From Alcaligenaceae bacterium (GTDB taxonomy: Bacteria > Pseudomonadota > Gammaproteobacteria > Burkholderiales > Burkholderiaceae_B): a stretch of 64,000 bases of DNA. The stretch spans positions 248,001 to 312,000 of the forward strand of contig JAUNUJ010000003.1 of assembly GCA_030538235.1 (NCBI GenBank). The letters run 5' to 3'. The notes beneath the pieces were generated by a model. That model made no database searches and was not told the DNA's origin. It saw nothing but the letters and a program-made list of their open reading frames with translations. Both the position numbers and the translations under genes were made by a program. This document shows positions 1 through 56,295 of this stretch, piece by piece; within the stretch, counting starts at the first letter, position 1; each line of letters starts with the position of its first letter.

Positions 1-291
1 TTCCATTCGACTGAGCATTGCATAATCTGATTTCCTCTAGAGTGTTAAAAGTGTTGTTTAGCTATTTATTGTTTTTATCTTGAATATAACTAATCATTAT
101 GCCTTTAGACCATAGGAATAACAATTGTTTGAAAGAGGATGTGTGGCTAGGCATCAAATTTTCTGCTTAAAAATCGGCACATTAAATACCTTTCATGGTT
201 CAAATGTCAAAAATACAACATTTGACACTTTTGTTAGGGTTTTCATTAGTTTTTTCTTGCAACGCAGCAAAACTTTTGATATTATTTAGAT
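1..291. other. Gene-free leader with operator-like inverted repeats
   Basis: I see no convincing gene here. Nested inverted repeats lie at 200-227: TCAAATGT (200-207) faces ACATTTGA (218-225), and TGTCAAA (205-211) faces TTTGACA (221-227). The right arm contains a perfect -35 hexamer TTGACA (222-227), so a protein bound to the repeat could block a promoter that reads rightward toward the small-RNA candidate. The matching -10 (ATTAGT or CATTAG near 244-250) is poor. The reading frame starting at 195 runs through a terminator and is not credible as a protein. Confidence 0.4.
257..285 (+). promoter_or_regulatory. Predicted sigma-70 promoter of the small-RNA candidate
   Basis: TTGCAA at 257-262 is followed after 17 nt by TATTAT at 280-285, close to the sigma-70 consensus. 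It predicts a transcript start near 292. Transcription from here to the terminator ending at 452 gives an RNA of about 160 nt. An alternative promoter uses the perfect TTGACA at 222-227. Confidence 0.5.
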
Positions 292-452
292 GTTGTCGAG
301 TTGATAGGTTTTTTGTTTTCAGCTCGCAGGAATTTAAACTGAAGTCTCTTTTTGTCTCCTTATCGTTTGGGGCTTCAGTTTATGCAGTTGTCTCCTCCAC
401 CCTCCTCCTTTGGTGGATTTGCCCGGAATCTTTTGATTCCGGGTTTTTTTTT
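292..452 (+). ncRNA. Candidate small RNA with exposed anti-Shine-Dalgarno loops
   Basis: Three stem-loops lie in a row. Stem 1 pairs AAACTGAAG (336-344) with CTTCAGTTT (373-381). Stem 2 pairs TCCACC (396-401) with GGTGGA (412-417) and shows CTCCTCCTTT in its loop (402-411). Stem 3 is the terminator at 422-452. The stem 2 loop contains CCTCCTTT, which equals the anti-SD core at the 3' end of bacterial 16S rRNA, and a second TCTCCTCC sits just before it (391-398). C-rich CUCCUCC loops are known in trans-acting small RNAs that pair with ribosome-binding sites. An anti-SD toxic RNA has also been described in betaproteobacteria, from memory. Identity with any named family is not shown. It could instead be the 3' end of an upstream transcript. 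Confidence 0.55.
422..452 (+). terminator. Strong intrinsic terminator
   Basis: A perfect 9-bp stem CCCGGAATC / GATTCCGGG (422-430, 435-443) with a TTTT loop is followed by nine T residues (444-452). No protein gene precedes it within the window, which supports a non-coding transcript ending here. Confidence 0.9.
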
Positions 453-54752: not shown

Positions 54753-55517
54753 ATGTCCTCAGAATCTCCTAAATACTCCATTCAGGTACTTGAAAGAGCG
54801 ACTTTATTAGTCGAGTTGCTCGCGCAGTCCTCAGAGCCTTTAAGTCTCAAGGACTTAGTTGCCCGAAGTGGTTTAAATATCTCCACTTGCCATCGCATCT
54901 TAAATGATCTTGTGATTGGTCAGTTTGTAGAGCATTTAGCCGGTGGTCGCTACCAACTGGGTTTGCGCCTATTGGAGTTGGGTAATCTGGTAAAAAACCG
55001 TCTCAATATCCAGGAGTTGGCCTATCCTCAAATGCAGGAGCTGCATCGAATAACCGGTGAAACGATTAATCTCTCCATCCGGCAGGGTGATGATATTGTC
55101 TATATCGAACGCTGTTGGAGCGGACAGTCGGGGATTCATGTGGTGAGACCGATTGGGGGGCGCGCACCTTTACATCTGACCGCTGTGGGTAAGCTTTTCT
55201 TAGCCGATCTGGATGCGGTCGAGTTACTCGACTATGTTAAGCGTACCGGTATACCTGCCAGCACCTCCAAGAGTGTTAATGAATTACAACGATTAAAAAA
55301 TGAATTAGCCGCTGTTCATCAACAAGGCTTTGCCATTGACAACGAAGAGTTAGAAGAGGGGGTACGTTGTTTGGCAGCTGCCATCTTTAATGAGCAGGGT
55401 AAAGTGGTCGCCGGTTTATCCTTATCAGCGCTAGCACAGCGTATTCAATATGCTTGGAGTCAGGATCTTAAACGTGCCGCAAAAGACATCTCTCGTGAGT
55501 TGGGGTGTTATCTATAA
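54753..55517 (+). CDS. IclR-family transcriptional regulator
   Basis: A 254-residue regulator with an N-terminal winged helix (about 8-75; SLKDLVARSGLNISTCHRILNDL is the HTH) and a C-terminal effector domain (GETINLSIRQGDDIVYIE ... HLTAVGKLFLADL ... GFAIDNEELEEGVRCLAAAI). IclR proteins usually control catabolic genes by binding small acids. The next gene is the phasin, with operator-like repeats between them, so it may regulate that gene or an unlinked pathway. The effector is unknown. It begins 34 nt after the CinA gene and may share its transcript. Confidence 0.9.
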   Translation: MSSESPKYSIQVLERATLLVELLAQSSEPLSLKDLVARSGLNISTCHRILNDLVIGQFVEHLAGGRYQLGLRLLELGNLVKNRLNIQELAYPQMQELHRITGETINLSIRQGDDIVYIERCWSGQSGIHVVRPIGGRAPLHLTAVGKLFLADLDAVELLDYVKRTGIPASTSKSVNELQRLKNELAAVHQQGFAIDNEELEEGVRCLAAAIFNEQGKVVAGLSLSALAQRIQYAWSQDLKRAAKDISRELGCYL

Positions 55518-55561
55518 GCTTATGTAGTTGTTTGATCTATATGAAGTTTCTTTTATGCAAC

Positions 55562-55587
55562 GCATTTTGTGCATCGCAACAAAATGC
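55562..55587. repeat. Inverted repeat upstream of the phasin promoter
   Basis: GCATTTTGT (55562-55570) and ACAAAATGC (55579-55587) are perfect 9-bp arms with an 8-nt spacer, ending one base before the phasin -35 box. It may terminate the iclR transcript or be an operator for an activator or repressor of the phasin gene. Confidence 0.6.
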
Positions 55588-55637
55588 TTGACACAAGAAT
55601 AGAACTTTGGAATAATAGCAATTGTTGCGCTGCAACA
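55588..55637 (+). promoter_or_regulatory. Phasin promoter and TTGC-GCAA operator-like palindrome
   Basis: A perfect -35 TTGACA (55588-55593), a 17-nt spacer and AATAAT (55611-55616) make a strong sigma-70 promoter. TGTTGC-GCT-GCAACA (55623-55637) lies over the expected start point, where a repressor would act. PhaR, the polyhydroxyalkanoate-responsive repressor, binds TGC-rich palindromes before phasin genes, so PhaR is a plausible ligand (inference). Confidence 0.7.
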
Positions 55638-55716
55638 CGAGTTTAAAAATAATGGCTGCAACAACAATTGAAGTATTCAAATCTATCACTGTCTCGTACT
55701 ACTTAAGGAAATTATT

Positions 55717-56295
55717 ATGAATAACCAAGTTCAACAGCAATTATTAGAGCGCCAAAAAGAAGCTATCGATACTTTCGTATCTGTTCAAGGTTCTTTATTC
55801 AGCGGTTTCGAAAAACTAGTTGATTTAAACCTAAAAGCTATCAAAAGCGTTATCGCTGAAGCTGCTGACCAAACTCAACAAGTTGCTGAGTTAAAAGACC
55901 CTCAAGAAGCTGCTAGCTACGTTGCTGCTATCGCTCAGCCTAACGCTGAAAAAGCAGTTGCTTACACTCAAGACGTTTACGCTATCATGAACGAAGTTAG
56001 CAAAGAGCTAATCAAGTTAACTGAAGAGCAAGTTGCTGAGTCTCAAAAGAAAATGGAAGAAGCTTTAGAGCAATTCGCTAAAAACGCTCCTACCGGTTCT
56101 GAAAGCGCTATCGCTTTACTAAAATCTAGCTTTGCTACTGCTAGCAACGCTTACGATTCTATCAACAAAGCTGCTAAACAAGCTGCTGAAGTTGCTCAGA
56201 ACAACTTAGCTGCTGCTACTAACGCGACTTTAAAAGCAACTGAAAATGCGACTAAAGTTGCTACTAAAACAGCTGCTAAAGTTGCTGCTAAGTAA
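55717..56295 (+). CDS. phaP: Phasin family protein
   Basis: Amphipathic protein that coats polyhydroxyalkanoate granules. The 192 residues show a phasin_2-type core (about 1-120: FVSVQGSLFSGFEKLVDLNLKA, YVAAIAQPNAEKAVAYTQDVYAI). A C-terminal Ala/Lys/Thr-rich helix (NAYDSINKAAKQAAEVAQNN, ending AAKVAAK) follows. Codons are extremely uniform (GCT, AAA, GTT, AAC), as in the most highly expressed genes. It is a single gene with a strong promoter and terminator. The polymerase and other pha genes are not in the window. Confidence 0.92.
   Translation: MNNQVQQQLLERQKEAIDTFVSVQGSLFSGFEKLVDLNLKAIKSVIAEAADQTQQVAELKDPQEAASYVAAIAQPNAEKAVAYTQDVYAIMNEVSKELIKLTEEQVAESQKKMEEALEQFAKNAPTGSESAIALLKSSFATASNAYDSINKAAKQAAEVAQNNLAAATNATLKATENATKVATKTAAKVAAK

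Follow-up and report, generated by a model that had tools for sequence, protein, structure and literature searches.

An RF02278 small RNA of an Oligella-like bacterium with a third anti-Shine-Dalgarno hairpin and an apparent PhaR operator at its promoter

A betaproteobacterial family of small RNAs (sRNAs) that imitates the mRNA-binding tail of the ribosome is already known, and an RNA of this kind was noticed at positions 292-452 in a 64,000-nucleotide stretch of the genome of an Oligella-like Alcaligenaceae bacterium (the whole stretch is called the window here). The observation is confirmed. What goes beyond the first-pass annotation, which was made from the sequence letters, is a third, covarying hairpin with a further anti-Shine-Dalgarno (anti-SD) motif and a PhaR-type operator; likely processing of the RNA had also been missed. 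Among the closest described systems, S17 of Bordetella pertussis lies between a glycosyltransferase gene and coq7 and has the promoter TTGCAT-17-TACTAT, on which its authors postulate a repressor without naming it (PMC11722255). With the present locus it shares the conserved core, the glycosyltransferase neighbour, two CU-rich sites and the terminator. It differs in its other neighbour, which is an OsmC gene here, and the available text mentions no third CU-rich hairpin. The Burkholderia cenocepacia RNAs ncS03, ncS05, ncS27 and ncS62 are also alike in their double hairpin, CU-rich single strands and membership of RF02278, and three of them share one upstream motif, but they occur in several copies per genome, and all but one of the four are very short (PMC5688073).

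Two further systems resemble the locus without a claim of homology. NmsRA and NmsRB of Neisseria (RF02877) have three stem-loops and two anti-SD motifs and repress genes of the tricarboxylic acid (TCA) cycle enzymes (PMC5362039); the NmsRb model scores 33.6 bits here against a cut-off of 52. MmgR of Sinorhizobium meliloti (RF00519) is an sRNA linked to polyhydroxybutyrate storage, and binding and repression of its promoter by PhaR (AniA) have been published with electrophoretic mobility shift assays (PMC8401924, PMC12542648). MmgR is alphaproteobacterial, and common descent is not claimed because RF00519 scores below its cut-off of 41 bits (19.4 here and 20.4 on locus L008). The wiring of PhaR to an sRNA thus has a precedent in S. 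meliloti. Within the betaproteobacteria, four RF02278 RNAs are reported for Herbaspirillum seropedicae SmR1 (PMC7011215), a laboratory strain of which a phaR deletion has been published (PMC6414382).

A search with Infernal against Rfam supported the anti-SD reading, placing positions 389-451 (+) of the window in RF02278 (Betaproteobacteria_toxic_sRNA) with 66.5 bits against a cut-off of 50, over the full model (1-64) and with E 3.3e-11, whereas the remaining Rfam matches to the stretch were all under their own cut-offs. The architecture of the family, a CU-rich 5' strand, a CU-rich loop and a terminator hairpin, is present. The RNA occurs once in its own genome. At E <= 0.001, RF02278 matches were obtained for all but one of the 8 genus genomes (the exception is 84% complete), for 47 of 61 genomes in a sample of relatives that included the own genome (40 over cut-off) and, in the order as a whole, for 188 of 300 (114 over cut-off). 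In relatives the anti-SD core was kept: the exact 31-nucleotide core TGTCTCCTCCACCCTCCTCCTTTGGTGGATT was found in 34 of 36 Alcaligenaceae loci and in 42 of the 58 aligned loci, while the terminator stem varied between loci. Outside the Alcaligenaceae this core is not near-invariant (47 exact among all 138 fetched copies), but NGTCTCCTCY opens 136 of the 138. The family is amplified in family f7; among the matches listed, G042 has nine copies and several other f7 genomes have 5-8.

Gene order was compared in flanks of about 1.5 kb in most loci. Of the 58 loci, 38, belonging to eight families, have an OsmC-like gene on their upstream side, and 28, all within the own family, have a GT4 glycosyltransferase gene downstream. 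Both together were found in the own genome and in L019 and L041, where OsmC is about 1.5 kb away. The OsmC-like gene (9601-10023 in L055) is a stable upstream neighbour in eight Burkholderiales families and aids the calling of orthologs. Judged by core and neighbourhood, the locus is an Oligella member of RF02278 and an ortholog of Bordetella S17.

The predicted primary transcript, a long form at 292-452 (+), was placed by promoter and terminator. A promoter-like pair had been called at 257-285, and a sigma-70-type TTGCAA-17-TATTAT is present there (+), but the pattern by itself is at chance level, with 3 found and 2.9 expected in 1.5 kb, and was rejected as stand-alone evidence. The call is supported instead by the alignment of the pair in 6 of 7 genus loci, the own included, among which the hexamers vary. 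The minimum free energy of the 292-452 strand is -55.5 kcal/mol (z = -7.0), which none of 200 shuffles equalled. The fold has four hairpins rather than the three perfect ones first described: an imperfect one at 293-329 (+), which congeneric loci fold alike; one at 335-382 (+); one at 396-417 (+), also seen in the alignment to the family model; and the terminator hairpin at 421-444, which with its T tract (421-452, +) makes the textbook terminator that had been noted. As had been claimed, the loop of the 396-417 hairpin (402-411) shows CTCCTCCTTT, the second anti-SD site. The first site, TGTCTCCTCC at 389-398 (+), had been described as an unpaired second motif; it stands just before this hairpin but is only partly unpaired, positions 396-398 being inside the stem. 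The term anti-SD refers to CCTCCTTT, the textbook 3' tail of 16S rRNA. As to the stated absence of a protein gene, open reading frames (ORFs) of 60-127 codons overlap 292-452, but none of them was found to be conserved. An S17-like small ORF was rejected, as the ATG at the position matching the 32-codon ORF of S17 (PMC11722255) opens only 4 codons here.

The hairpin at 335-382 is specific to the genus, and its loop shows TGTCTCCTT (353-361), the third anti-SD motif. Six of the seven Oligella loci have this extra 5' hairpin with TCTCCT (UCUCCU in the RNA) in the loop. Across these six loci, a small number of sequences for covariation, 6 of the 14 stem pairs are changed on both sides, which 5 of 500 shuffles reach, and 96.4% of the cells pair, which none of 500 shuffles reaches and for which slid controls do not exceed 57%. 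The variety of pair types in the stem shows no excess (178 of 500 shuffles). The third CU-rich loop of the long form perhaps pairs with ribosome-binding sites (RBSs) in the genus. It is possible, and we give the idea some weight short of preferring it, that positions 292-388, the 5' part, serve as no more than a discarded leader and that this loop has no function. The Bordetella long form S17L is unstable, with a half-life below 2 min, and S17S is stable (PMC11722255). Six of the 7 genus loci have a TCTCCT at 5-60 nucleotides upstream of the core, compared with 1 of 30 copies from other Alcaligenaceae and 0 of 101 from other families; G005 lacks it. Against a mere leader, the stem covaries with two-sided changes, and the TCTCCT loop is kept in all the genus loci that have the hairpin.

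The sRNA promoter looks as if it carries a PhaR binding site. The sequence TTCTTGCAACGCAGCAA at 254-270 (+) overlaps the -35 element and has one mismatch to YTKNTGCRNYGCANMAR, the PhaR consensus deduced for Ralstonia eutropha (PMC12849132); positions 257-270 are an exact TTGCRNYGCARCAW. In the own genome exact TTGCRNYGCARCAW has four matches at three places, namely before the RF02278 sRNA, before a phasin gene in the same window and at an acetoacetyl-CoA reductase gene that exceeds its NCBIfam cut-off. Allowing one mismatch gave 58 matches against 22 for the reversed pattern. The two PhaR-type sites before the phasin gene span 55569-55638 (+); the one at C13:303569 has one mismatch and the one at 303622-303638 is exact, on the minus strand. 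The phasin gene itself, at 55717-56295 (+), is predicted to be co-regulated by PhaR (PF09361, E 7.6e-22; TIGR01841, 63.3 bits, cut-off 30.2). An IclR-family regulator gene (54753-55517) lies just upstream of the phasin region (55520-56295). A phaR gene is present in the own genome (PF07879, 99.7 bits, in G000; the gene was read in L102), placed after a phaB-like reading frame. All but one of the 8 genus genomes have PhaR; the exception is G005, whose sRNA has no box. Farther upstream of the operator, a conserved box TTAGGGTTTTCAT at 234-246 (+) is seen in the genus alignment; it or a near version is kept directly ahead of the PhaR box in the six similar Oligella loci, and TAGGGTT stretches resembling it are present in G514 and G477.

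Across the order the box was counted as an exact TGCRNYGCA core with at most three mismatches in 17 positions and a start at most 200 nucleotides upstream. The 138 copies came from 127 genomes and from among the matches listed over cut-off, mostly one per genome. The box was found upstream of 79 of 101 copies from genomes with PhaR and of 0 of 37 copies from genomes lacking it, where shuffles expect 1.5 and 0.3. Counted by genome the figures are 79 of 99 against 0 of 28, and by family 17 of 18 against 0 of 6. Control stretches downstream gave 10 of 101 against 0 of 37, and those further upstream 12 of 101 against 0 of 37. A TAnnnT hexamer stands 16-18 nucleotides after the TTGC hexamer of the box in 53 of the 79. 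The published S17 promoter TTGCAT-17-TACTAT (PMC11722255) was found identical in L019 and L041, inside the PhaR-type box TTCTTGCATCGCACAAA. The sRNA persists without the box in lineages lacking PhaR (L103-L137, L053, L007) and is therefore controlled differently there.

Losses of PhaR were also followed inside the Alcaligenaceae, where 245 of 268 genomes have it. Six genomes lacking PhaR were examined, and four have no box: G005 and G514 (both 100% complete), G477 (91%, about 200 contigs) and G392 (86%, about 210 contigs). G514 and G477 retain a -35/-10-like pair but have lost the right half of the palindrome. In the re-tested genera, the box was found in 19 of 20 copies from genomes with PhaR and enough upstream sequence. 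Left out of this comparison were G157 (sRNA match, PhaR not found, 85% complete), L253 (only 23 nucleotides upstream), L266 and L267 (G481, PhaR not found, 72% complete), which the core pattern did not locate, three further PhaR-lacking Alcaligenaceae genomes, and the other re-tested genomes lacking PhaR, which had no sRNA match.

Several points weigh against control by PhaR. The definition of the box was fixed after first looks at the data; alternative settings gave 81 of 101 against 0 of 37 and, with 260 nucleotides and no mismatch limit, 83 of 101 against 1 of 37. The Fisher p of 1.7e-18 for the association overstates independence, since the genomes share ancestry. A strict box is missing from 22 of the 101 copies from genomes with PhaR, among them 3 of the 6 Oligella loci with PhaR, where only a degenerate box was seen. 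G391, the one exception among the 20 copies of the re-tested genera, has PhaR but no box. The box is kept where PhaR was not detected in G475 (95%, about 310 contigs) and G361 (57%); PhaR may have been missed by assembly in these two, and may likewise have been missed in the draft assemblies G477 and G392, which lack the box.

At the promoter of a genuine RF02278 sRNA, the TGC-N3-GCA box could instead be conserved simply as a -35 element, or be bound by a different regulator, and have nothing to do with PhaR. Its overlap with the -35 in many loci would fit this, as would the copies without it in PhaR-containing genomes and its retention in G475 and G361. We regard this as unlikely: G514 and G477 keep the promoter-like pair yet have lost the right half of the palindrome, and in several other families the box, judged by eye, adjoins the -35 instead of covering it. 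In addition, the same exact motif precedes the phasin and acetoacetyl-CoA reductase genes in the own genome, and the consensus comes from independent work on PhaR (PMC12849132).

With this evidence we hold it probable that the locus encodes an S17-like RF02278 sRNA that is repressed by PhaR, blocks RBSs and damps carbon intake. The promoter at 257-285 would give an RNA of about 160 nucleotides which, as expected from relatives, is cut near 388/389 to a stable form of about 63 nucleotides, the S17S-like core at 389-451. Site 1 and loop 2 of this short form would pair with purine-rich RBSs and block the initiation of translation, and the third loop of the long form might do likewise in the genus. 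Such covering of RBSs had been proposed from the sequence, and it agrees with the published relatives S17, ncS27 and NmsR, which are reported to pair with RBSs through regions of this kind. The targets would be mainly carbon-uptake and catabolic genes; S17 is reported to repress transporter genes (PMC11722255), as NmsR does TCA enzymes. PhaR acts as a repressor of phasin genes, and nascent storage granules titrate it away (PMC12849132, PMC6414382). We infer that PhaR bound over the -35 would repress the sRNA promoter, that granules would titrate PhaR as they form and let the sRNA rise together with the phasin, and that the raised sRNA would damp further carbon intake at carbon surplus. Growth in glucose medium raises ncS03, ncS05 and ncS27 of B. 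cenocepacia 8.0-, 6.9- and 4.3-fold (PMC5688073, Table 2). It counts against the proposal that glucose does not act as a specific trigger: levels of the B. cenocepacia RNAs go up in biofilm as well and, for the same three, 2.6- to 3.9-fold in starvation (PMC5688073).

A further point against it is that a genome-wide surplus of extended complementarity was looked for and rejected for site 1 (41 matches against 45 for the reversed-pattern control). For loop 2, matches with two mismatches numbered 103 against 76 in the own genome; ordinary Shine-Dalgarno sequences could explain this excess. Sixty of 144 complementarity places were examined as loci, and in 16 of the 60 an ORF of 60 codons or more begins near the match, in some cases at an internal GTG or TTG codon. 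Frames resembling a fumarylacetoacetate hydrolase, a carboxyltransferase, a rhodanese and a monooxygenase, names read from the letters, are only candidate targets.

The first-pass annotation had mentioned a toxic RNA among those with comparable C-rich loops. The name of the family reportedly goes back to growth inhibition in E. coli, described by Kimelman in 2012, and the RNA might accordingly act on the ribosome, or be a toxin that inhibits translation in general, instead of regulating selected mRNAs. This is very improbable, given that NcS27 overexpression slows growth on several carbon substrates and leaves others unaffected (PMC10987360) and that regulation by NmsR needs the anti-SD letters and acts on named target mRNAs (PMC5362039). 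The label 'toxic' is not to be carried over unproven, because S17S left the exponential growth of E. coli unimpaired, with modest impairment at entry into stationary phase (PMC11722255). That the hairpins arose by chance and are never transcribed can hardly be credited in view of the family E-value, the conserved core and the conserved gene order, even with a promoter pattern that is not above chance.

A link between PhaR and RF02278 was not found in the titles and abstracts among the matches listed in the literature search, and the available main text of papers naming RF02278, including PMC4603805, does not mention PhaR ('phar' occurs in PMC4603805 only within 'Pharmaceutical'). Nor did the consulted parts of the literature name a direct transcription factor for RF02278 RNAs; PhaR, with a precise site, is a directly testable candidate regulator for this widespread RNA family. 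We lean towards the wider view that RF02278 RNAs are an order-wide output of PhaR in the Burkholderiales, in which granules free the promoter and an anti-SD sRNA shuts off carbon import and catabolism. If this is true, the missing repressor of Bordetella S17 gets a name, and both the carbon-uptake targets of RF02278 RNAs and their rise on glucose would fit. Together with the alphaproteobacterial MmgR, control of a CU-rich sRNA by PhaR would then be a carbon-storage circuit that is ancient or has evolved more than once, and the storage of bioplastic would be tied to the control of translation across a large bacterial order.
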